A DNA stretch of 37,893 nucleotides from assembly GCA_027451625.1 (NCBI GenBank), contig DAIDIY010000038.1, positions 1 through 37,893 of the forward strand. Direction: 5' to 3'. Made by a program: the position numbers and the translations under genes. A model generated the notes under the pieces. The model did no database searches. It saw nothing but the letters and a program-made list of their open reading frames with translations, and had not been told where the DNA came from. The DNA comes from Candidatus Daviesbacteria bacterium (lineage in GTDB: Bacteria > Patescibacteriota > Microgenomatia > Daviesbacterales > UBA10151). Below, one piece after another: positions 312 to 34,200 of the stretch; position 1 is the stretch's first letter, and every line of letters starts with the position of its first letter.

Positions 312-1391
312 TTATCTTCTTCCTACTCTATTTATCTCTTCTAGCTTAGACTTTAAATAATTAGCAAACTGAGGTTTAAGAGGTCTAACTAGTCCTGGAA
401 GAACCCCAAGAGATATAATCTTTTTATCTAAATCGATCAGCCTTAATTCTGTGAACTTTCCTACTCCTAAAAGCAAATTACAAGACTCGTCTTGAAACCC
501 AAAACGAAAACCTTCGGAAGTCTTTACTATCTGAATAATTCTAAGTCTCATTGCTTTTTCATAAGTTTCGATTATTAATTTAGGATCATAAATTGGCGGC
601 TTGTATTCCACTGGTTCTTCATTCCTATTTGCTCTTTCTAGATTCTCTGCAGATGTATTGTAATAACTCATAAGATCTGGAGGAATTTGAAAACTCATTC
701 CAGATAATTCTTCAGTAAACCTGCCCGTTTTTCTATCGACATTTGTATATTTAGGAGTTCCATCTGTATTCTCACCCAATCCGAAACTTTCCTGCATCCA
801 AATATGCGCTCCATCTTCTCCCAATTGAATCTGTACTATTCCTCTCTCAATGTTTCTAGATCCTAGCTCTAACTCTTTATCAATCATTACTGCTTCTATA
901 CTTGCCCTTTCTCTTTCTGCATTCCTTTTTCTCTCCTCTCTTGCTCTTATAGTTTCCAATACATCTCTTTGTCTTTGTTTTTGTCTGTCTTGCCTTTGAG
1001 CTGCAGTCATAAACGGATACATAACTTCTTGATTAGGCTGTACTATCTTTGATTGAGCCGGTTTTTCCTTCGATTTATCTTTCAACTTCAGTTCGTAATA
1101 ATAACTAGGCTTAGATGCTGTGGTATCTTTTCTAATAACTACTTCTAACAAATTATATAAGCTTTCTTTCCCAACAGCTAATTGATTTAAAGTAGGTATA
1201 AGCTGATCTATTTGTTTACTTTTTTTAGGATGGTACTGACTTTTCAGTTGTTCAATTGCCAAATCTTGTTCAATTCCGTTATTTAATAATCTATTTAATT
1301 CATCTCTAAAAGCTACAAGCTGATTCCCTGCGAATCTTGTCACTTCATGCAATGAAGGAGAATTATTAAGTTTATATTCCGGGGCTGTCAT
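312..1391 (-). CDS. Uncharacterised protein with central coiled coil (359 aa)
   Basis: I do not recognise a family. There is no signal peptide or membrane segment, so it is probably cytoplasmic. Residues about 130-170 are strongly charged, rich in Q, R and E, and look like a coiled coil or long helix (QRQDRQKQRQRDVLETIRAR). The C-terminal third is mixed alpha/beta and ends in a basic helix. The ATG is supported by TTGCTT-17-TATATT (1402-1430) ending 10 nt upstream; no Shine-Dalgarno sequence precedes it. It is the first of three minus-strand genes of unknown function, each with its own promoter. A structural or mobile-element-linked role is possible but unsupported. Confidence 0.75.
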   Translation of the reverse strand: MTAPEYKLNNSPSLHEVTRFAGNQLVAFRDELNRLLNNGIEQDLAIEQLKSQYHPKKSKQIDQLIPTLNQLAVGKESLYNLLEVVIRKDTTASKPSYYYELKLKDKSKEKPAQSKIVQPNQEVMYPFMTAAQRQDRQKQRQRDVLETIRAREERKRNAERERASIEAVMIDKELELGSRNIERGIVQIQLGEDGAHIWMQESFGLGENTDGTPKYTNVDRKTGRFTEELSGMSFQIPPDLMSYYNTSAENLERANRNEEPVEYKPPIYDPKLIIETYEKAMRLRIIQIVKTSEGFRFGFQDESCNLLLGVGKFTELRLIDLDKKIISLGVLPGLVRPLKPQFANYLKSKLEEINRVGRR

Positions 1392-1401
1392 ATTATGCCA
1401 A

Positions 1402-1430
1402 AATATACTCCTCTCTTACAAAAAAAGCAA
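1402..1430 (-). promoter_or_regulatory. Promoter of the 359-aa gene, leaderless layout
   Basis: TTGCTT (1425-1430), 17-bp spacer, TATATT (1402-1407). The -10 box ends 10 nt before the ATG, so the predicted transcript starts at or next to the start codon. Confidence 0.5.
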
Positions 1431-1613
1431 TAATTTGAAAACTTTCATTAGAGAAGGATGTATCCTCATGTTACCTGTGGCAAATTACCAGGATTGGTGT
1501 ATGAATTTTGCAGTAGATTTTCACATCGGAAAATATTTGAATCTCCTTACCAATACTTACTAATCCCCTTAAGGATGGTACTATTATCTTAAGTATACAC
1601 CCAAATTTTATAT

Positions 1614-2474
1614 TTAAGTACTAATTTGAGTATTAAAAATACGAGGCAAAGAATGACTCATCATTATACCCGAAGAAGCAGAGTGTACAGCTTTCATATT
1701 AACTCTATTCTGAAATACAATTCCCCAGGGGAGCGGGGTATCTAAGCGCCTAATAGCTGTCAAATAACCATTATCCCCAACAACGAATGAACGTCCGCCT
1801 GCCTGGAATTCCAATCGTCTAGGAACATCTAAGTAATACTGGTTCACGTCATGGCTATTAAATTCTACAGTATTACTCTCTTTATCTACGGTCACTCCGG
1901 GATATGCATAGAATACATTTGACGATTTATTTTGTGGATTAAGATTTCTATTCAAGGCCCGATAATAGTCAAAATGTTCTTCTTTAGGCATACCTTCTGC
2001 ATAAAAAGCACTATTTAACTCTCCATTCCGATAAAGCGCAGCACCGATGATAAGATCTCCTTGGCGGAACCTCTTCGAGAACTCCACTTTATTAAATTCA
2101 TCTAAAGGAGCACTTTCCCCAAGAGGTCTTTTTGGAACTATATAGTCTATCGATTCCTTTGTGAATGGATTATAAAATCTGGTTCTTATAGTTTCAGCAC
2201 TCCTAGAGTGAGGAGGTACTTTCTCTGCATAGCGAACTATAATTAAGTTTGGTGCGGCTCTCAAAAGGGAAAATTCAGCTCCAGAGACTTCCAAATCAGT
2301 TCTCTTCAAAGAAGGGTCTAAACTTACGTGCAAAGGTCTTGTTAAATTCCAGCTTCGACGCTGCGTAGGATAAGGCAGTATCTCTTCCAGCTCACCAAAA
2401 AGATGTCTTATCGCTACTAACCTTTGATCTTGTTTTGGTACTCCTTTTGGTGGCTCTTGATCGATTCTAGTCAT
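1614..2474 (-). CDS. Uncharacterised protein (286 aa)
   Basis: No recognised family. The sequence is soluble, mixed alpha/beta and without a signal peptide. The open frame extends further upstream, but ATG at 2474 (MTRIDQEPPKG) is preferred because TTGATT-17-TATAAT ends 10 nt before it; the upstream codons would overlap that promoter. The middle (around residues 140-200) has a regular strand pattern with many aromatic residues, and the C-terminus (PWGIVFQNRVNMKAVHSASS) is moderately hydrophobic. It lies between two other unknown minus-strand genes, with independent promoters rather than an operon. No function can be assigned. Confidence 0.75.
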   Translation of the reverse strand: MTRIDQEPPKGVPKQDQRLVAIRHLFGELEEILPYPTQRRSWNLTRPLHVSLDPSLKRTDLEVSGAEFSLLRAAPNLIIVRYAEKVPPHSRSAETIRTRFYNPFTKESIDYIVPKRPLGESAPLDEFNKVEFSKRFRQGDLIIGAALYRNGELNSAFYAEGMPKEEHFDYYRALNRNLNPQNKSSNVFYAYPGVTVDKESNTVEFNSHDVNQYYLDVPRRLEFQAGGRSFVVGDNGYLTAIRRLDTPLPWGIVFQNRVNMKAVHSASSGIMMSHSLPRIFNTQIST

Positions 2475-2484
2475 ATACCTGAGA

Positions 2485-2513
2485 ATTATATCAAATATTA
2501 TAGGATAAATCAA
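2485..2513 (-). promoter_or_regulatory. Promoter of the 286-aa gene, leaderless layout
   Basis: TTGATT (2508-2513), 17-bp spacer, TATAAT (2485-2490), then 10 nt to the ATG at 2474. A second TATAAT lies at 2497-2502, inside the spacer. Confidence 0.65.
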
Positions 2514-2537
2514 AATTAAGGCAGTGAATTAATAAAT

Positions 2538-2771
2538 TTAAGCTGCCCTTTTAGGAGGTTTTACTATTACAGAAGGTTTAAGAATTGTGCCCGGTATAAA
2601 AAACCCATATTTATCACTTCCCAATGGTCGGCGGATCACAAAGGATCGTCTAGGAGGTAAATTTTCAGAAAGGATTTCTTCTAAAGGAGTAATTTTATCT
2701 TTCTTATGACCTACTTCATCACCCATTTTAGACTTTTCCTCTATTTGTCTGATTCTGTCTCTCTCTCTCAT
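2538..2771 (-). CDS. Small basic uncharacterised protein (77 aa)
   Basis: Small protein with a charged N-terminal helix (MRERDRIRQIEEKSKMGDE) and a basic, Pro-rich C-terminus (KPSVIVKPPKRAA). No family recognised. The frame is open to a TTG at 2789, but ATG at 2771 is chosen because a consensus promoter, TTGACA-17-TATTAT, ends 7 nt upstream of it. The IS element at 2813-3892 inserted a few bases beyond the -35 box and seems to have left the promoter intact. Reality as a gene rests on the promoter and on an open frame with plausible composition. Confidence 0.6.
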   Translation of the reverse strand: MRERDRIRQIEEKSKMGDEVGHKKDKITPLEEILSENLPPRRSFVIRRPLGSDKYGFFIPGTILKPSVIVKPPKRAA

Positions 2772-2778
2772 TTTTCTG

Positions 2779-2807
2779 ATAATATGCAATTTTTAACAAA
2801 TTGTCAA
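2779..2807 (-). promoter_or_regulatory. Consensus sigma-70-type promoter of the 77-aa gene
   Basis: TTGACA (2802-2807), 17-bp spacer, TATTAT (2779-2784), 7 nt to the ATG. The target duplication of the neighbouring IS (2808-2812) directly abuts the -35 box. Confidence 0.7.
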
Positions 2808-2812
2808 AGAGG
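2808..2812. repeat. Target-site duplication AGAGG, left copy
   Basis: AGAGG directly outside the left inverted repeat, matched by AGAGG at 3893-3897 outside the right one. Confidence 0.65.
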
Positions 2813-2841
2813 TGTGCAGGCCAGCTAGATAACGTACAGTT
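2813..2841. repeat. Left terminal inverted repeat of the IS
   Basis: About 29 bp starting TGTGCAGGCC and ending CGTACAGTT. It pairs with 3863-3892. The transposase stop codon (2825-2827) lies inside it. Confidence 0.75.
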
Positions 2842-3826
2842 GTTCTCCTTTCTGTTGTTGCTGGTAATTTCTAACATATTTGGCTGGTGTTTGGTAGTGG
2901 ATAGCTTTATGGTATCTGTGGTTGTTGTATTTATCATTAAAGATTTCACATCTTCTGTTAATCTCATCTAAATCATCTATCAGGTCTTCTTGGTAGTTAA
3001 AATATTCATATTCTACTGTCTGGATTAATCTCTCAGCCCTTCCATTCATTTTAGGGGTATGGGGATGATTAAAGTAATGGGTAACCTTGAGTTTCTCACA
3101 AGCTTTATGAAAATTTAAAAGATACTCTGATCCATTATCTGTATTTACAGAGGTTATGGTAAAAGGGAAGTAATCGATAACTTTGGTCAAAAAGTTAGCT
3201 GCTGACTCTGATGAACCTGTTTTGTAGGCCCAGATAAACCCATATCTTGATTTACAATCAACAGCTACAAACAGATAAAATCTTCTACCTAAGATGTATA
3301 AATGTTTAGTATCAATCTGGACTAATGATCCTAAATCTTTATCCCTTAAAACAGCCTCAGCTTTAAGCCTTGAGATAGTCCTTCTTTTATGTCTTTTGAC
3401 ATTAACCTTATGTTGACTATTTAGTAAATGGATATGTCTGTTAATTATCTTTTGGATGGTGTTGTAACCTAACTTGATATCATGCAAATCATTTAACTCT
3501 GCTTGGATTTCATACTTACTCTTTTCCACATCATCTCCTCTAATCTTAATTACCAGCTCAATCACTTCTTTAGGGGTTGTCATCTCTCTTAGTTTATGCG
3601 GAGTTCTACTCTTTAGGTCATCCTCTAAACTTCGTAAGTTCACTGTATCAAATCTATCCTCCCAAAGGTAGAAAGTATCTCTTGAGATATTAAAATGCCT
3701 GCAAGTTAAAGAGATATTCTCATTGTGTCATAACCAGAAATCAAACCAAGCTAACCTCTTTAATGCTGCCTTTGATAAATTAGCAGATCGTACAGTTACT
3801 AGTGGAAATTTTTTAAAGCTGCGCAT
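2825..3826 (-). pseudogene. IS481-like DDE transposase with in-frame TGA
   Basis: Read from ATG 3826 the frame gives 333 codons. The N-terminus (MRSFKKFPLVTVRSANLSKA) is followed by helix-turn-helix sequence, then the integrase core. Core acidic residues appear in LVQIDTKHLYI (first Asp), TSVNTDNGSEY (second Asp) and MNGRAERLIQ (Glu), all of which look intact. Codon 33 is TGA (3728-3730), cutting off the first 32 residues of the DNA-binding region. The open remainder (ATG or alternative start at or below 3643) keeps the full catalytic core. Other genes here end at TGA, so this is a premature stop, not recoding to glycine. A TATAAT 9 nt before the ATG suggests a leaderless start. Confidence 0.8.
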
Positions 3827-3835
3827 GTAGCAGCC

Positions 3836-3864
3836 ATTATATGTGCCGTTCAATCTTTATTAAA
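3836..3864 (-). promoter_or_regulatory. Transposase promoter
   Basis: TATAAT (3836-3841) ends 9 nt before the transposase ATG. A weak TTTAAT (3859-3864) lies 17 bp further upstream, touching the right inverted repeat. Confidence 0.45.
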
Positions 3865-3892
3865 CTGTACGGTATCTATCGCGGCCTAAACA
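3863..3892. repeat. Right terminal inverted repeat of the IS
   Basis: On the plus strand it begins AACTGTACGGTATCTA and ends GGCCTAAACA. The reverse complement matches the left end except for a few substitutions and one base of length. Confidence 0.75.
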
Positions 3893-3897
3893 AGAGG
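3893..3897. repeat. Target-site duplication AGAGG, right copy
   Basis: AGAGG directly outside the right inverted repeat, matching 2808-2812. Confidence 0.65.
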
Positions 3898-3960
3898 TTC
3901 CAACTCACCTCCACTTTATTATCTTTTTAATCTTTAAGAAATTAATAATAGAGTTGAGTT

Positions 3961-4116
3961 TCATTTCCAACGATTAAAATGCTCCGACTCCTTTTCATAG
4001 GCTTCTTTAAATACTAAATATGAATTTTCATCCCAAGGGAGAGGATAAATATAGAAAGACGCAAAAAATTATTTTAATTCCATTCGAACGGATTTTTTAA
4101 CTTCTTCTACAGCCAT
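3961..4116 (-). pseudogene. Small gene relic with in-frame TAA (52 codons)
   Basis: From ATG 4116 the frame reads MAVEEVKKSVRMELK, then TAA at 4069-4071. It continues in the same frame as FFASFYIYPLPWDENSYLVF and an acidic, aromatic-rich tail ending FNRWK and TGA. Both halves have natural protein composition, which is unusual for random AT-rich DNA. No family recognised. It may be a nonsense-broken small gene. Confidence 0.35.
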
Positions 4117-4118
4117 GT

Positions 4119-4259
4119 ACTAATTCTACTAAATCGGAAGCTTTGGATAGACTATCGGATCAATTTATTAAGATTGAGTTACACATACCATATAGTTATC
4201 AACAAATACAGTTTTCTCAGTTACTCAAGGATTATCTTCTTTTGAAGCGCTGCAGATAA
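4119..4259 (+). pseudogene. Coding-like fragment without start codon
   Basis: An open stretch of 46 codons to TAA (4257-4259), containing STKSEALDRLSDQFIKIELH and IPYSYQQIQFSQLLKDYLLL. The pattern resembles the end of a larger protein; the IPY..... segment is faintly like the C-terminus of HflX-type GTPases, but that is weak. A stop (4098-4100) closes the frame upstream and no start is seen, so it looks like a 3' remnant left after rearrangement. Confidence 0.3.
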
Positions 4260-4362
4260 ATTTTTACATCTAAACTGAATTCCACAGTTTCAATTCCTAT
4301 TAGGTTATAGGTTTATGGTAAAATAATCAACTGAAAGACCAACAAAAAAAATTATTCTGTTC

Positions 4363-6558: not shown

Positions 6559-7236
6559 ATGGCTGAACAACAAAGAGGATCGATCATTGTATTTGAAGGG
6601 CCTGAAGGAGCAGGAAAAACTACTCAATCAAGACTCCTTTACGATTGGTGTGTAGACCACCAAATCCCCGCTGTTAAAGCAATAGAACCAGGAGGAACAT
6701 TATTAGGACAGGAAATAAGGGCGATACTTCTGCAGGATAGAAATAATGATCAAATAGATCCTCGGGCTGAACTTCTATTATTTTATGCTGCAAGATTACA
6801 AAACCTTAAAGAAGTCGTAAATCCTAGTATAAAGGATGGTAAACTCGTTATATTTGATAGATTTGAAGGTTCATCTTTTGCCTACCAGGGAGTTGCAAGA
6901 GGTTTAGGAGTAAAAGCTATAACTGACCTTTCAAGAATGTTTGTTCAGCCATCAGGTTGTATACCTGATTTATATTTATTTCTTGATGTTCCTCCTGGTT
7001 TAGGTTTGAAAAGAAAGCTCGGGGAAGATATAAATCGCTTTGAGAGAGAAAACTTAACCTTTCACAACAGAGTAAGGCAGGGATATTTCCAATTATACAG
7101 AGGTATAAGAGATGGTAAATATAGATTAGCACAACATGCAGAAATAATAGATGCCACAATGCCTCAAGATATTATTCATAAAATGGTTGTAAACCAGGTA
7201 ATAAAACTATTAGGCCGTGAAGATCTTTTTTTATAA
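6559..7236 (+). CDS. tmk: Thymidylate kinase (dTMP kinase)
   Basis: Phosphorylates dTMP to dTDP with ATP, the last specific step of dTTP supply, in the cytoplasm. The Walker A loop FEGPEGAGKTTQSRL is at residues 12-26, EPGGT at 43-47, and the DRF-E..S.AYQG catalytic motif at 100-111. LFLDVPPGLGLKRK at about 140-153 leads into the lid, with NRFERENLTFHNRVRQGY behind it. Length (225 aa) is normal for the family. One deviation: the usual TREPGGT has Ile in place of Arg (AIEPGGT). No neighbour shares its transcript; an upstream TATATA box is weak. Other nucleotide-related genes (TSCPD protein, 5'-nucleotidase, pyrD-like) lie within 5 kb. Confidence 0.95.
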   Translation: MAEQQRGSIIVFEGPEGAGKTTQSRLLYDWCVDHQIPAVKAIEPGGTLLGQEIRAILLQDRNNDQIDPRAELLLFYAARLQNLKEVVNPSIKDGKLVIFDRFEGSSFAYQGVARGLGVKAITDLSRMFVQPSGCIPDLYLFLDVPPGLGLKRKLGEDINRFERENLTFHNRVRQGYFQLYRGIRDGKYRLAQHAEIIDATMPQDIIHKMVVNQVIKLLGREDLFL

Positions 7237-7751: not shown

Positions 7752-7780
7752 TTGTGGATATAGAAGCTGAATGGTATACT
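7752..7780 (+). promoter_or_regulatory. Promoter of the 116-aa gene
   Basis: TTGTGG (7752-7757), 17-bp spacer, TATACT (7775-7780), 8 nt to ATG 7789. The upstream in-frame ATG at 7771 lies across the -10 box and cannot be the start if this promoter is used. Confidence 0.55.
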
Positions 7781-7788
7781 TTTTTGAG

Positions 7789-8139
7789 ATGGAACGGATA
7801 AACTTAGGAAATATTCAATTTGTGGCTGATGCATTCCTTGATGAAGGTATAATAATAAAAAAGGTCGATGAAAATGGAAAGGCAACAAAAGATGACTTAA
7901 TAGTCTGCCAAGTTTATACCAGAGGAGAGGGTAAAGAGAAGGAGGTAACTGGAATAGATACTCGTCCCATAGTAAAGATGCCGTTTTGTCCAGTTGTTTT
8001 TACAACAAGCTACAATCCTCTGGTTTTATCTTTTGAAGAAGAAATTATAACTTTAAGCCCCAACGAGCTTATCCGACAAGGGGATCGCCTATCTGGTCTT
8101 GAATTAAATGTTTTTTTGACTTACATTAAGTCTAGTTAA
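7789..8139 (+). CDS. Uncharacterised small protein (116 aa)
   Basis: No family recognised. Predominantly beta: alternating hydrophobic strands such as IQFVADAF, DLIVCQVYTRG and FCPVVFTTSYN, then a short helical end. No signal peptide or membrane helix. The frame is open from 7771, but ATG 7789 (MERINLGNIQF) is preferred for the promoter reason given at 7752-7780. Two cysteines (QVYTR side and MPFCPV) show no metal-site spacing. Monocistronic. No function can be proposed. Confidence 0.65.
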   Translation: MERINLGNIQFVADAFLDEGIIIKKVDENGKATKDDLIVCQVYTRGEGKEKEVTGIDTRPIVKMPFCPVVFTTSYNPLVLSFEEEIITLSPNELIRQGDRLSGLELNVFLTYIKSS

Positions 8140-8190: not shown

Positions 8191-8219
8191 TTGACTAAGC
8201 ATATAATCTCTATTAAAAT
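8191..8219 (+). promoter_or_regulatory. Promoter of the TSCPD/zinc-tail gene
   Basis: TTGACT (8191-8196), 17-bp spacer, TAAAAT (8214-8219), 8 nt to the ATG at 8228. A TATAAT at 8202-8207 lies only 5 bp after the TTGACT and is the less likely -10. Confidence 0.55.
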
Positions 8220-8227
8220 CACCATAT

Positions 8228-8800
8228 ATGTCAGAACGCATAATAGGCCCCTCTGGTCCATTTGAATCAGATCCTGCTTTACAACCAGAAATACCACAAG
8301 ATCCATTTCTTGATCATCTATTTTTAGAAAGACCGACTATTTTGTGGGGATCAACTTATAGAGCTCCTACTATCACAGGGACTGCTTTTATAACTATTAA
8401 TCGAGAAGGAGAAACCGGGCACTTGCAAGCAGTAAGAGAAGTTCTAATTAATATAGGCAGAGCAGACATCCAAACAAGAGAGATGGCCAATGCTTTAGGT
8501 TATCTGATTACAGAATTACTTAATATTCCAACTTCAAAGAGCAATCAAGAGATTCTGGAAAAAATTATAAACATGCTGCGAAATCCTGGAAAAAGAACTG
8601 AACCTGGAGTTGTAGATATCAACATGAGATCCTTACCCGAAGCCATTGCACAAGTCTTAGAAGAAGATATATCCCAAACATCAAATCCAACTTTAAAAGA
8701 ATTAAGCTTTCAGAATTTGTGTCCTAGCTGCCGAGAATCTCCACTGGCAACTAAAAACGGTTGTAATATCTGTTATCTATGCGGATACAGCTCTTGTTAG
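8228..8800 (+). CDS. Free-standing TSCPD domain plus cysteine tail, like the C-terminus of B12-dependent ribonucleotide reductase (190 aa)
   Basis: Residues 48-118 follow the TSCPD pattern seen near the C-terminus of class II ribonucleotide reductase NrdJ: TITGTAFITIN, EVLINIGRADIQ (compare FVNIGKAG), ALGYLITELLNI, then QEILEKIINML. MRSLPEAIAQVLEE (133-146) matches the S.PDAIA..LEE segment that follows in NrdJ. The end is C165-x2-C168-x10-C179-x2-C182-x2-C185-G-Y-S-x-C190, the NrdJ-type cysteine tail. The catalytic barrel is absent here. In NrdJ the tail cysteines bind zinc and re-reduce the active site (family knowledge). A regulator or electron-delivery partner for a separate reductase is inference. 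Start set by the promoter 8 nt upstream. Confidence 0.8.
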   Translation: MSERIIGPSGPFESDPALQPEIPQDPFLDHLFLERPTILWGSTYRAPTITGTAFITINREGETGHLQAVREVLINIGRADIQTREMANALGYLITELLNIPTSKSNQEILEKIINMLRNPGKRTEPGVVDINMRSLPEAIAQVLEEDISQTSNPTLKELSFQNLCPSCRESPLATKNGCNICYLCGYSSC

Positions 8801-8810
8801 GAATCTCCGT

Positions 8811-9428
8811 TTATGTGTTTGAGTTAATTAAAACTTTTACGATCTGATCCCAATTTTGGACTACACTTATTCCCTCTTTTTTAAGATCATTATCTTTAAG
8901 ATGTCTATTCCAAGGTCTACGGAATAAAATTGGTTTAACGTTAAACTCAAAGCTATTATTTAAATTATCTATATTATCATCTATTAAAACTGTAATTCCC
9001 TCTTCCCGACAGATCTCCAGCTTGCTTTTTTTAGGTTTATTTGAACCGTAACTGTCAGTTAGATGAATCCTTTCAAATAGATTCGGAAAAAGACTATCCA
9101 AAGACTGCTTTGTTTTAAAAAGTAGTGAAGCCGGACGGGAGGAGACTATTCTTAAGATAAAATAGTTATTCAATTTCTTTAAAGCCTCCAAAGAGCCTTC
9201 TACAGGAGGAAGGTATATAAATTCAGAAGAGTTATAAAATTCAAAAACTCTTTTCACAGATTCTTCCTGACTGCATCCCCAGAGTATCCCGAGGTTAAAG
9301 GTATACATATCTTCATAGTTCAAGCTTGTTCCAAAGTATTTATTAGAATAGCTCACTAAACTCTGAATAAAATCTACTAAAACATCATCATTATCCACAC
9401 CGACTATTACTCTTTTTACTTTATCCAT
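8811..9428 (-). CDS. HAD-superfamily 5'(3')-deoxyribonucleotidase-like phosphatase (205 aa)
   Basis: The HAD fold is shown by motif I VGVDNDDVLVDF (D12 nucleophile and D14), motif II VSSRP after strand FILRIV, a lysine-rich motif III (SNKPKKSK) and motif IV VLIDDNIDNL. Overall layout and a cap with YSNKYFGTSLNYEDMYTFNL fit the NT5C-type family that removes phosphate from nucleoside monophosphates. ATG 9428 is chosen over an upstream GTG/ATG because TATATT ends 6 nt before it. It is divergent from the peroxiredoxin gene and convergent with the TSCPD gene (10 bp between stops). Substrate is not determinable from sequence. Confidence 0.8.
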   Translation of the reverse strand: MDKVKRVIVGVDNDDVLVDFIQSLVSYSNKYFGTSLNYEDMYTFNLGILWGCSQEESVKRVFEFYNSSEFIYLPPVEGSLEALKKLNNYFILRIVSSRPASLLFKTKQSLDSLFPNLFERIHLTDSYGSNKPKKSKLEICREEGITVLIDDNIDNLNNSFEFNVKPILFRRPWNRHLKDNDLKKEGISVVQNWDQIVKVLINSNT

Positions 9429-9434
9429 ATCCAG

Positions 9435-9440
9435 AATATA
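9435..9440 (-). promoter_or_regulatory. -10 box of the HAD phosphatase gene
   Basis: TATATT ending 6 nt before ATG 9428. The -35 region overlaps that of the divergent peroxiredoxin promoter. Confidence 0.4.
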
Positions 9441-9465
9441 CCACAAAACGATCATTAGTTGGCCC

Positions 9466-9494: not shown

Positions 9495-9503
9495 AGTTTT
9501 ATG
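9478..9503. repeat. Perfect inverted repeat spanning the -10 box and start codon of the peroxiredoxin gene
   Basis: CATAAAACTA (9478-9487) and TAGTTTTATG (9494-9503) are exact reverse complements, 10 bp each with a 6-nt centre. The right arm ends with the ATG itself. Operator-like position; see findings. Confidence 0.65.
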
Positions 9504-9935
9504 CTCTCAGTTGGTTCAAAAGCTCCTGAGTTTACAGCCTACGACCAAGACGGGAATTCTCATTCTTTGAGTGAATTTTTTGGAAAATTAATTGTTTTAT
9601 ATTTTTATCCAAAAGATGATACTCCAGGATGCACTATGGAAGCATGCTCTATTCGTGACAATTTTGCAAAACTGACTGAAAAGGCATCAATCCTTGGAGT
9701 AAGTTCAGACAGTACACTGAGTCATAAACAATTCGCAATAAAATATAATTTGCCTTTTATCCTTCTTTCAGATCCACAAAAAGAGATCATCAAAATGTAC
9801 GAAGCTGACGGACTATTTACAAAACGAATAACTTATCTTATTGATAAAAACGGCATTATTATTAAAATTTATCCTCAGGTAAATCCCTCATCTCATGCAT
9901 CTGAGTTAATTAATGATTTAAATAATCTATCGTAG
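9501..9935 (+). CDS. bcp: Thioredoxin-dependent peroxiredoxin, Bcp/PrxQ type
   Basis: Reduces hydrogen peroxide and organic peroxides using thiols from thioredoxin-like partners in the cytoplasm. The thioredoxin fold starts KAPEFTAYDQDG. The active site YPKDDTPGCTMEACSIRD holds peroxidatic C44 and resolving C49, five residues apart as in PrxQ. A typical VLGVSSDS and an FILLSDPQKEI segment follow. At 144 aa it is slightly short but complete. Start fixed by the promoter and by the conserved N-terminus. Convergent with the pyrD-like gene. The inverted repeat over its start suggests dedicated control, possibly redox-linked. Confidence 0.93.
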   Translation: MLSVGSKAPEFTAYDQDGNSHSLSEFFGKLIVLYFYPKDDTPGCTMEACSIRDNFAKLTEKASILGVSSDSTLSHKQFAIKYNLPFILLSDPQKEIIKMYEADGLFTKRITYLIDKNGIIIKIYPQVNPSSHASELINDLNNLS

Positions 9936-30222: not shown

Positions 30223-33200
30223 GTGAGAAATAAGCTAAATCTTCGAGTAAATATCGTCCCTAAGAGAATAAATAAACTTTTAGATAAGTATCTGTATAGA
30301 CTTCGGAAGAAAGAAGAGCTTACTATTTCTCTTTCATTGGCAGTAGTAGTACTATTTTTTGCTATAGCACTGATAGCTCCGTTTAAGTCACAACTTTTAT
30401 CAACTCTTTTTAAAAAAGGATTTATTCATGCCACAGGAACTTTAAACAGTGATGATTGGCCACAACTAGGACATGATGCTCAACGGACAAATGATACACC
30501 CTCAAATATACCTCCCGGACCTTATAGATTTTACTGGCGATGGACAAATACTCCTTTTGCATCGCGAGTTCAACCAGTAGTTGTAGGCGGAGTTTTATAT
30601 ATTGGAAGCTTGAATGGAACATTTTATGCAGTCAATGCAACAGCTGATAATCAAGGAGGACCTCCTACAATCATTTGGCAAAAAGTTTTGAATATATACG
30701 ATCCATCCAGAAATTATGGAAATAATATAGATAATATAACTCCTGATCCAGTACGATCTGGAGCTGGTGTAGATGTAAGTACTGGAACGGTCATAGTGGG
30801 AACACAACATGGAACGATATATGGCCTTGATACAACATCCGGTAATGTTAAATGGACAGTATTTACCGGAGGAGCAATAGTAGCCTCCCCTCTTTTGGAT
30901 GAAGCCGGTACAGTTTACATTGGCTCATCAGATGGATATTTTTACTCTATTAATACTGCAACCGGAGCTATAAATTGGAAAACCGAAATTGATAACACAA
31001 TCTCAAGCTCAGTTGGAACAAGTAATCTACCGGTACCGATTTTAGGATCAGCAGCACTCTCAACAGATGGGACGCAAATTTATCTTGTCGCCGAAAACGT
31101 TAGAGCTTATGCACTTAGCAGTTCAAATGGATCTATAGTCTGGTCAACACAGCTTCAAGGACAATCTGAAGAAGGAAGAGCTCCAGTGGTTTACCATAAC
31201 TTGACAACCGGAGTTGATGAGATATTCATAAGGACTCAACCCATCGAAAATTTTACTGAACTTTTGAAAAACGGAGATTGCGTTTTAAATGGAAATTATC
31301 CCAGTAATTGTGGTAATTCTTCATCTATACCATGGTCAACAACTGACGACACATCGATATGGAGTCAGGACTGGAATTTAGTCCGACCTAATATAGAAAC
31401 CTATTTGCAAGGAGATCCTTCTTCGCAAACAATATTTGCTTTAAATGGCAGTAATGGACAACCTATTACTGGTAGCATTGCTTCTGTACCTCCAGTCCTA
31501 TATACATATGGTGTTAATCAAACCCCATCATCACCAGCTCTTTATAATAATGAACTTTATTTGCCATATAGACCTCGTCATGGGATTCAAACTGATAATG
31601 GATCGGTACACGTGACCACTCAATACGATGCTGAACTGGGAATGATGGATCCTTCAACATTTGATATAACCAATATTGCCACTGATTCAGCCTCAGTTGG
31701 TTTTCATTATCAATTTCGTCTCACCTCTGATGAACCTGCTAGTGTCTCAGTAGCAGGCAACTATTTATTAGTCGACTCATGGGAGAGACTAGGAGGCCTC
31801 CAACTCACTAATGCTACTACAGGAAATCTAATTGATATCGCTACGATTTCTAATGTGAATGGAAGTTGCCAATGGGGAATTGGCGATGCCTTATATCCCT
31901 ACTCTGATGCTCAATTTTATGATAGCTGCTCTGATTTAAATAACATTTCTGGAAATGTGACAGGTGATGGAGAATCTAGAGAAGGAGTTGTAGTTTCATC
32001 TAACCGTATCTTTTGGCATGTTCTATCAGATGGGTTAGGAGCATTGGGCAATGCCAACAATATAACTGATTCTCTTTTGCCGACTGTTACCCCTCCCCCA
32101 ACGGTAGCACCACTTCCCGCACCTATATCAACTCCCAGCGCTTCAACTTTAATTAATGACTATGTTTGGAACGTGCCCACCAGGCCAGTTTCTACTCCTT
32201 CAGCAGATTTAGTCAGTGAGCTAAGTTCAGCAGTACAAAGTATCGTCAACTCAAATCAGCATTTACTTCCTTATTACTTTGAAAACGGTTACCCCCAATC
32301 CGGTTCATGGCCTCCTGATTCAGGAAACGGGGAGCCAGCAGAGGTTGAGATAAATCAATGGGGCAATCATGGATTCTGGTATGATCAAGGAGAGCTCCTT
32401 TACACACTTTCTATAGCTTATCCATACCTTTCTTCATCTCTACAATCGCAAGTGAAAACATACATTCAAAGCCAAATGATTAATCTCTTTCCGCCGCTTT
32501 CTGCGCTGCCTTACGGGGGAAGCTGGCCCTGGGAGACTCAAGGGCAAAGTAGAGAATACTTTCCAGTTCCCTCACCTATTAGAACAGGCAGCGAAAATAG
32601 CTGGCCTCCTCCAACTCCTCCTCTTCAAACTTTATATGCATTATGGGCTTATGGTAACTATACCGGAGATTGGTCATATATTGACGCTAATTGGCAAAAC
32701 GGTACCATACAAAGTTTCTTTACCAGCAAAACTCAATCAATTGCTACATCTTCAGCTTCACCCACTGCTGTAGATTCTTATGCTGAAATAGCAGGGGCAA
32801 TAGGATACGCAAGAATTGCGCAACATGAAGGTGATACAACACAGGCTCAAAATGGCGCAAATATTGCAGCTTCAGACATGTCTGCAGGTATTACTAATTT
32901 AAATAACTGGACAGATATTGCCAATACTCTATATCCAAAATCTCAACAATCCGGCAACTCTCCCGCTGAGCAGATTGGAAGTCGCGGACAAGCATGGTGG
33001 GGACTTGTTCCTGAAGTAGGACACTATTTACACGATACGAATCTTCCAGCGGTTAATGATTTATTGTCTCCTCTAATTGATGTAAACAATAATGATGGGT
33101 GTTATTTGTGGTATATCACAATGCTTGGCACACAGTGTCAATTATCTGAATCATCCAGGCAAAGCCCAGAGATTGGTTGGTCAGTATTTTTAACTCAAGC

Positions 33201-34200
33201 ATACATTGAGGGAGATAATCAACAACAACTTCGCTACTTTCTGGATAGACCTTGGGGGCTGGGAGATCCTTGGTATATTCAAAAAATAGTAGCAACAATA
33301 GAAGCTCCTAACCCTCAATCAACTGGGTCAGTGGTAGGAGTGGTATCTGGAGGAACAGCTACATTCTCAGCTAATTCGACACAAAGTACAGTTAGTACAG
33401 GAGGAACAATCCCTGTTCAGATCTATGCAGACTCAGAAACCGATGCAGCAAATCTGTTTTCAGCAAAACTAACATTTAATCCTCAAGTATTATCGGTATC
33501 AAGCATAGATCCAACAGGATCGTTTGTAACTACATGGGCAGAAAAGTATTTTGATAATACTAATGGGAATGTATCCATAACAGGAGGAGTAGTTTCACCG
33601 GGAATAAAAACTACAACTCCTCAGCTTCTAGCAACAGTAAACTTTACTCCCCTTACAAGCGGAAGTACTACTATAAATTTTGATAACACTAATTCAGTCA
33701 TTTATCGTAATTCAGACAATGCAGATATTTTAGGTTCAACTACTAATTATACATTTATTATCTCTCCAATTCCTACTCAGTCTTCCACTCCTACACTCAC
33801 AGTTACCCCAACTATGACACCAACTCTAACTTTAACTCCTACTCCCACAGTAACACTCACCCCAACACCAACTCCAACACTCACAGTTATCCCGACTATG
33901 ACACCAACCCCAACACCAACTACTGGGTTAAATACTCCAACACCAACAATAACAGTAGTGCCAACACTTTCAATAACACCAGGTATAGGAGGGGGACTTA
34001 TGGGAGATGCGAATGGAGATGGGAGAGTAGACCTGCAGGATATGTCAGCGCTCTTTACTGATTGGTGTTTGGCATCGTGTAATCCTGTAGATGTGCCGTA
34101 TACATTGGACTTTAATCATGATGGGGTAATAAACTCACTGGATTATGAGAATATGCTAAATATCCTATTGTCAAATGGTACTATTCATCCCAGTAATTAA
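30223..34200 (+). CDS. Giant surface protein: anchor, PQQ-like propeller, alpha/alpha-barrel-like region, cohesin and dockerin (1325 aa)
   Basis: GTG start. One membrane helix (LSLAVVVLFFAIALIAPF, about 37-54), the rest outside. Residues 75-640 form a PQQ/quinoprotein-type beta-propeller with repeats such as GGVLYIGSLNGTFYAVNA, GTVIVGTQHGTIYGLDTTSG and GTVYIGSSDGYFYSINTATG. Residues about 645-1028 are helical and Trp-rich, like six-hairpin glycosidases (HGFWYDQGELLYTLSIAYPY, GSRGQAWWGLVPEVGHYL). A cohesin-like domain (1050-1182) begins VSTGGTIPVQIYADSET. A Thr/Pro linker leads to a type I dockerin (1258-1325) with two calcium loops, DANGDGRVDLQD and DFNHDGVINSLD. Catalysis is unproven. A cohesin and a dockerin in one chain suggest self-assembly or docking of partners. 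Confidence 0.85.
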   Translation: MRNKLNLRVNIVPKRINKLLDKYLYRLRKKEELTISLSLAVVVLFFAIALIAPFKSQLLSTLFKKGFIHATGTLNSDDWPQLGHDAQRTNDTPSNIPPGPYRFYWRWTNTPFASRVQPVVVGGVLYIGSLNGTFYAVNATADNQGGPPTIIWQKVLNIYDPSRNYGNNIDNITPDPVRSGAGVDVSTGTVIVGTQHGTIYGLDTTSGNVKWTVFTGGAIVASPLLDEAGTVYIGSSDGYFYSINTATGAINWKTEIDNTISSSVGTSNLPVPILGSAALSTDGTQIYLVAENVRAYALSSSNGSIVWSTQLQGQSEEGRAPVVYHNLTTGVDEIFIRTQPIENFTELLKNGDCVLNGNYPSNCGNSSSIPWSTTDDTSIWSQDWNLVRPNIETYLQGDPSSQTIFALNGSNGQPITGSIASVPPVLYTYGVNQTPSSPALYNNELYLPYRPRHGIQTDNGSVHVTTQYDAELGMMDPSTFDITNIATDSASVGFHYQFRLTSDEPASVSVAGNYLLVDSWERLGGLQLTNATTGNLIDIATISNVNGSCQWGIGDALYPYSDAQFYDSCSDLNNISGNVTGDGESREGVVVSSNRIFWHVLSDGLGALGNANNITDSLLPTVTPPPTVAPLPAPISTPSASTLINDYVWNVPTRPVSTPSADLVSELSSAVQSIVNSNQHLLPYYFENGYPQSGSWPPDSGNGEPAEVEINQWGNHGFWYDQGELLYTLSIAYPYLSSSLQSQVKTYIQSQMINLFPPLSALPYGGSWPWETQGQSREYFPVPSPIRTGSENSWPPPTPPLQTLYALWAYGNYTGDWSYIDANWQNGTIQSFFTSKTQSIATSSASPTAVDSYAEIAGAIGYARIAQHEGDTTQAQNGANIAASDMSAGITNLNNWTDIANTLYPKSQQSGNSPAEQIGSRGQAWWGLVPEVGHYLHDTNLPAVNDLLSPLIDVNNNDGCYLWYITMLGTQCQLSESSRQSPEIGWSVFLTQAYIEGDNQQQLRYFLDRPWGLGDPWYIQKIVATIEAPNPQSTGSVVGVVSGGTATFSANSTQSTVSTGGTIPVQIYADSETDAANLFSAKLTFNPQVLSVSSIDPTGSFVTTWAEKYFDNTNGNVSITGGVVSPGIKTTTPQLLATVNFTPLTSGSTTINFDNTNSVIYRNSDNADILGSTTNYTFIISPIPTQSSTPTLTVTPTMTPTLTLTPTPTVTLTPTPTPTLTVIPTMTPTPTPTTGLNTPTPTITVVPTLSITPGIGGGLMGDANGDGRVDLQDMSALFTDWCLASCNPVDVPYTLDFNHDGVINSLDYENMLNILLSNGTIHPSN
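33777..33975 (+). repeat. Thr/Pro linker-coding imperfect tandem repeats
   Basis: Degenerate ACNCCNACN-type repeats encode the linker. A 32-nt unit beginning ACACTCACAGTTA is present at 33793-33824 and again at 33877-33908, 84 nt apart, with three mismatches. Likely to vary in length between strains. Confidence 0.7.

Follow-up and report, generated by a model that had tools for sequence, protein, structure and literature searches.

The natural electron donor of most class II ribonucleotide reductases (RNRs; NrdJ) and the role of their C-terminal tail are poorly known. Separately encoded NrdJ tails have already been described in two systems. The first is NrdJb of Pseudomonas aeruginosa and a few gamma-Proteobacteria, a separate IscU-like domain followed by a six-cysteine zinc finger, without a catalytic barrel (PMC4520616, PMC9669993). 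In P. aeruginosa, this separate subunit performs dithiol exchange for NrdJa, to which it binds with an apparent Kd of 260 nM (PMC4520616), and it is encoded in the nrdJab operon together with NrdJa, which is itself tail-less. The second is YS40_042 of the Thermus phage phiYS40, whose gene immediately follows that of the N-terminal portion, YS40_041. YS40_042 and the tail-only profile PHROG 23565 (199 positions) represent separately encoded tails of about 190-200 aa.

In other NrdJ proteins the tail, or cysteine-rich domain (CRD), is joined to the barrel. In the enzyme of Stackebrandtia nassauensis (NrdJd), each of the six tail cysteines is needed for TCEP-driven activity; residues 920, 923, 936, and 939 are proposed as zinc ligands and 933 and 945 as the redox pair, and electrons are handed from one subunit to another. 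The CRD also governs the effector-dependent oligomers of this NrdJ. Neither thioredoxins nor glutaredoxin from the organism itself supported activity, and the separate CRD, which is quick to aggregate, did not restore activity to the tail-less enzyme (all from PMC5704485). In the RNR/NrdJ literature searched, represented mostly by titles and the beginnings of abstracts, neither a lone tail beside a complete NrdJ nor a viral one without a reductase is described.

The locus considered here lies in a window of 37,893 nucleotides, the whole stretch of DNA analysed. This window is contig C38 in the genome of a Candidatus Daviesbacteria bacterium (1.15 Mb, 51 contigs, 98.45% complete, estimated contamination 1.98%). 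Positions 8228..8800 of the plus strand hold a free-standing open reading frame (ORF) with an ATG start, encoding 190 aa plus stop; its product is called the orphan below. All its parts are read on the same strand. Residues 1-34 (8228..8329) form an N-terminal extension that is unalignable to NrdJ and has a pLDDT of about 65-88. Residues 35-152 (8330..8683) would form a TSCPD/IscU-like alpha+beta domain of three strands and three helices, whose Pfam support is below threshold. Within it, residues 119-134 (8582..8629) are in the alignment the counterpart of the NrdJ GIGG...GFG segment and lack the glycine motifs. The six-cysteine zinc-finger tail, residues 162-190 (8711..8797), is assigned by alignment and by transfer of positions from S. 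nassauensis NrdJ. Promoter-like hexamers directly 5′ of the ATG (8191..8219, plus strand) are no more than chance would give in this region.

The terminal cysteines of the orphan, C165, C168, C179, C182, C185, and C190, are invariant in alignments A1 and A3 and satisfy, at the very C-terminus, the CRD-tail pattern C-x2-C ... C-x2-C-x2-C-x4/5-C. The motifs SLPEAIAQVLEED and CPSC-x10-CNICYLCGYSSC are present. The NrdJ-type cysteine tail named by the initial annotation is present, and the set that serves electron delivery in NrdJ is complete (6/6). By position relative to S. nassauensis NrdJ, zinc is likely to be bound by C165, C168, C182, and C185, with C179 and C190 as the likely redox pair.

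On the basis of sequence comparison, the orphan can securely be regarded as a homologue of the C-terminus of NrdJ without the catalytic barrel. Residues 34-190 align to positions 598-758 of NCBIfam NF006417 (B12-dependent RNR, 759 positions) with an E of 7.7e-14; the score is far below the full-length cut-off of this model (961 bits), as expected for a fragment. A tblastn search of the window with the genome's own NrdJ places NrdJ residues 631-823 at 8327-8797 (E 2e-18). No relic of the barrel was found in the window by tblastn and blastn of the own nrdJ, the two further tblastn rows having E values of 0.75 and 5. The ORF, the motifs, the NF006417 match, and tblastn all agree with the earlier description of a detached NrdJ tail without a barrel. 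That description spoke of the C-terminal third of the reductase; the tail part holds, but the size does not, as about 193 of 823 residues are nearer a quarter. It also expected Pfam TSCPD (PF12637) to hit residues 48-146. The profile does align there, to residues 49-147, but with 13.1 bits (E 0.13), under the curated cut-off of 22.8 bits, so that the orphan is not counted by PF12637 alone; homology to the TSCPD-bearing NrdJ C-terminus is nonetheless established by NF006417 and tblastn. With the orphan as sole query, no close protein relatives were found in genome contigs or viral contigs, and no solved structure matched it by sequence.

The fold of the orphan is predicted with confidence. The AlphaFold2 model, built with 115 sequences, has a mean pLDDT of 85.1 and a pTM of 0.65; most 10-residue blocks of the domain lie at 86-97 but two fall lower (78 and 61), while the zinc finger reaches 81-95. 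A Foldseek search of this model against the PDB gave no match at an E of 0.001 or better, with SufU in the top rows. With VIA-align, the best Z was 5.9 (SufU/IscU), a value tied with unrelated proteins and in the range which the tool calls middling. The predicted fold agrees weakly with the IscU-like domain of NrdJ C-termini, as described in PMC9669993. Among predicted viral proteins, three fold matches were found at an E of 0.001 or better, all annotated as RNR: one full-length phage RNR and two short proteins (184 and 136 aa).

The genome contains one match to the RNR profile PF02867 and none to NRDD (PF13597). The former is an 823-aa NrdJ on contig C11, which has its own TSCPD domain and a complete tail, CPDCGNATLVYEEGCSKCYTCGFSKC; the gene order on C11 is nrdR, nrdJ, a 141-aa ORF (no NCBIfam match), and a cobA-type adenosyltransferase. 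The orphan (C38) and nrdJ (C11) are thus on different contigs. The initial annotation had proposed that the detached tail might regulate a split enzyme and had looked to a tail-less reductase elsewhere in the genome; it had also set against this idea a full-length reductase with its own tail and no co-occurrence of the two genes in relatives. The latter is what is found, since the single PF02867 match carries its tail and the two genes occur together in no relative seen. A split enzyme is rejected because the only RNR large subunit of the genome is full-length with an intact tail, and the orphan is therefore an extra tail and not the missing half of such an enzyme.

Upstream of the orphan lie the thymidylate kinase gene tmk (6559..7236, plus strand) and a 122-aa ORF without Pfam or PHROGs match (7771..8139, plus strand). 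Downstream, an NT5C-type deoxyribonucleotidase gene (8811..9455) is on the minus strand, opposite to the orphan, and a peroxiredoxin gene of the PrxQ/Bcp kind (9501..9935, plus strand) starts about 700 bp away. The reported proximity to tmk and a nucleotidase is correct for this window, but the arrangement is not conserved in the order: tmk homologues (E 1e-10) occur in 8 and NT5C homologues (E 1e-5) in 4 of the 45 order genomes, the window's genome counted in both cases. Moreover, at the loci of two relatives with listed genes, tmk in G007 and NT5C in G018, different genes are the neighbours. A conserved nucleotide-metabolism neighbourhood is rejected on these grounds. An integrase-core (rve) transposase-like gene is present on the minus strand at 2825-3643, about 4.6 kb upstream of the orphan, and a region farther along the window (30223-34200) encodes a protein of 1325 aa, in which a PQQ/BamB-type propeller is combined with a dockerin-like stretch at the C-terminus that narrowly misses the Pfam cut-off.

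The NrdR-box-like repeat seen before nrdR was not found upstream of the orphan, and no match to an NrdR-box consensus was found near it. At locus L034, inverted TACAAGATATTG-like repeats at 1979-1992 and 2055-2068, upstream of nrdR-nrdJ, are a candidate NrdR box pair for the lineage.

Among the relatives examined, the orphan is known from one genome only. Used as a query, it matches sequences in 42/45 genomes of the order, 108/379 of the phylum, and 240/373 of the class, three sets which overlap. The open frame at the orphan has 197 codons, and the other matches listed lie in frames of at least 341 codons, except those in G002 (76), G026 (84), and G169 (206). These three short frames and that of G486 (341 codons) were rejected as free-standing tails, as all run off the contig start. 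No second cellular lone tail was seen in the 45 order genomes, the 379 phylum genomes, or, among the matches listed, the class genomes. Likewise, the 80 cellular loci taken from genome contigs include no lone tail: barrel matches directly precede the L121 frame (432 codons), and L074 and L136 are cut by contig starts. Two patescibacterial genomes, G306 (C16, C3) and G040 (C4, C26), match the NrdJ tail twice each, and every one of these matches lies in a long open frame.

The reading tentatively preferred here is that the orphan may be an extra NrdJ tail acting in trans, which would donate electrons to the single NrdJ or alter its assembly. It would be the free C-terminal module of a dimeric class II RNR, in which an IscU-like docking or oligomerisation domain is followed by a redox zinc finger. 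The protein would be expressed and bind zinc through C165/C168/C182/C185, and the one NrdJ of the genome would receive electrons at its active site from C179/C190; alternatively, it may dock on NrdJ and change its oligomeric state. An enzyme that is already tailed would thus gain another tail, expressed apart from it and acting in trans like NrdJb.

The known systems give this reading both a precedent and its difficulties. The cysteines match the S. nassauensis set and NrdJb acts as a separate subunit, and the orphan is thus equipped as a trans tail. The intact frame, the confidently predicted fold, a base composition like that of the neighbours, and the lone tails of viral contigs also speak for this reading. 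As in NrdJb, it is a separate tail-only chain without a barrel; unlike NrdJb, it has neither a tail-less partner nor an adjoining catalytic gene, the orphan gene standing alone and the RNR of the genome being tailed. The orphan shares domain order and the six-cysteine pattern with the CRD of fused NrdJ (S. nassauensis NrdJd and the own NrdJ), but it is free. In length and separate coding it resembles YS40_042, but has no N-terminal portion ahead of it; PHROG 23565 matches it over the last 29 residues only (E 4.8e-4). Against a trans tail speak the failed reconstitution with the separate CRD, the loss of NrdJ-specific positions, and the complete tail of the cognate NrdJ, so that the need for a second tail is not shown. 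The restriction to a single genome and the failure to find the repeat of nrdR ahead of the orphan also count against it.

The lost positions were counted in an alignment of 55 NrdJ tails, in which 49 columns are strongly conserved (at least 90%). The orphan keeps 29/49 of these positions (20/49 changed) and 28/120 of the less conserved ones, whereas in the same comparison the own NrdJ keeps 49/49 and six other tested tails keep 38-49 of 49-51. All six cysteines are retained, whereas GIGG and GFG are gone, as is a glutamate of EEGC. With 20/49 conserved positions changed, the contacts of the orphan with NrdJ may therefore be lost. Loss of GIGG...GFG as a mark of detachment was rejected, as the strict motif is absent in 34/38 fused viral and 26/135 cellular tails (sequence duplicates removed, and the viral tails including some cut by contig ends).

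Loss of NrdJ-specific positions with retention of every cysteine is also what the main rival would lead to. Here the orphan would be a thiol or zinc protein freed from RNR, a small dithiol carrier or a zinc/Fe-S-related protein that serves clients other than RNR, such as the nearby peroxiredoxin. Such a protein, rather less probable than a trans tail, would fit the very long branch of the orphan (5.7 changes per column in one tree and 4.4 in another, of 56 and 75 rows) and the faint fold resemblance to SufU/IscU, and a second tail would be unnecessary beside a complete NrdJ. However, the zinc-finger layout is still of NrdJ type down to the terminal CGYSSC, and the Z score is shared with unrelated proteins. 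The PrxQ-type gene, although close, is in no operon with the orphan, NT5C lying between them on the other strand.

The restriction to one genome, with the fused gene alone in all relatives seen, and the many lost positions would also suit a remnant in decay, left by a second nrdJ copy or a prophage-borne tail and now without function. This appears improbable. The 190-codon frame is intact and the six cysteines are kept at an identity of at most 42% to any NrdJ compared, which is why the orphan is read as selected, and there is no barrel relic nearby. Drift was simulated by substitutions only, starting with the own nrdJ tail and going down to 38% identity, on the assumption of descent from the own nrdJ with no selection at any time; the frame stayed open in 0/3000 runs and all six cysteines survived in 4/3000, and the simulation is lenient because indels are ignored. 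The orphan has thus most likely been selected over a long time as a free protein and is not decaying, to judge from these sequence data, although a recent end of selection is possible.

A decoy or negative regulator, quite improbable, would replace the cis tail or cap oligomers, reduce the active site poorly, and so lower or retune dNTP synthesis. The CRD does control effector-dependent oligomers in S. nassauensis NrdJ (PMC5704485), and the orphan has changed conserved positions on a kept fold; on the other side, no sign of inhibition is seen here, and the retained redox cysteines argue for an active tail. Very improbable is a binning or assembly artefact, with a contig foreign to the genome that holds nrdJ on C11: the number of contigs, the estimated contamination, and the two neighbouring genes without homologues in most of the order would allow it, but the composition of the orphan (GC12/GC3 0.448/0.246) is similar to that of its neighbours and to nrdJ (GC3 0.237), and since the orphan lies well inside the 37.9-kb contig, a misplaced bin would remove the partner only, not the free-standing gene.

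As to its origin, the orphan, whether an extra tail in trans or not, may derive from a local nrdJ duplication or from acquisition from elsewhere, including phages; the trees do not separate these. Two groupings of the orphan are left standing by the AU test: one with the own NrdJ (p 0.466) and one with the full set of 30 order sequences (p 0.374). The 75-row tree holds about one third of the cellular loci L074-L153 with duplicates dropped, L225 is absent from it, and the viral rows L170, L194, L196, L200, L202-L205, and L207 were left out.

Lone tails are also present in viral contigs. When IMG/VR was scanned, alignment A1 gave 54 loci and alignment A2 gave 64, on 85 different contigs by listed names; 104 loci were examined under different ids, with flanks of up to 4 kb a side. 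A lone tail without a barrel in the flanks is found on 5/85 contigs, corresponding to four distinct proteins: L186:3974-4402, L187:3908-4528, L193:203-733 (the same protein as L195:3995-4525), and L225:3854-4510. The flank of L193 is short because the gene is near the contig end; that of L195 is not short. No RNR barrel was found in these records; PF02867 and PF13597 have no match in any of the five (162, 106, 33, 24, and 90 kb), which may be fragments. The proteins consist, like the orphan, of a TSCPD domain and a zinc finger, but they come from viral contigs; in L193, a portal-protein gene lies downstream of the tail. More of the NrdJ motifs are retained in the tails of L187 and L225. In 3/85 contigs the tail is cut by the contig start (L164, L170, L239), and 75/85 have it in frames of at least 420 codons.

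L186, L187, and L193 fall at different places in the tree, and a sister relation to the orphan is not shown. Their scatter suggests that tail detachment happened more than once, with long branches that make placement uncertain. The lone viral tails are possibly phage proteins acting on the host RNR, which would be a compact route to more dNTP without an 800-residue enzyme. Lone tails in a bacterium and in a few virus sequences suggest that the tail can function as a separate part. A wider view, unlikely as it stands, is that NrdJ turnover modules recur in free form as a class of small redox proteins that has no name so far. Phages without any reductase would use them to supply or redirect electrons to the host class II RNR or to re-form its oligomers, and this Patescibacterium would have kept one, derived from a phage or from the local nrdJ, to serve as an additional subunit or regulator of its RNR. 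A freed tail beside a complete enzyme, and alone in viral contigs, is in any case a natural reagent for tests with tail-less NrdJ and for fishing of the electron donor.

The last 2/85 viral contigs have a separate tail frame beside the barrel. L206 (26-2439) carries a viral split class II RNR whose barrel and tail genes overlap by one base. In L207 (75 kb), nrdJ is in pieces at 470-4270: two ORFs hold barrel sequence, the tail has a frame of its own, and a 266-aa ORF between the pieces is homing endonuclease-like by eye.
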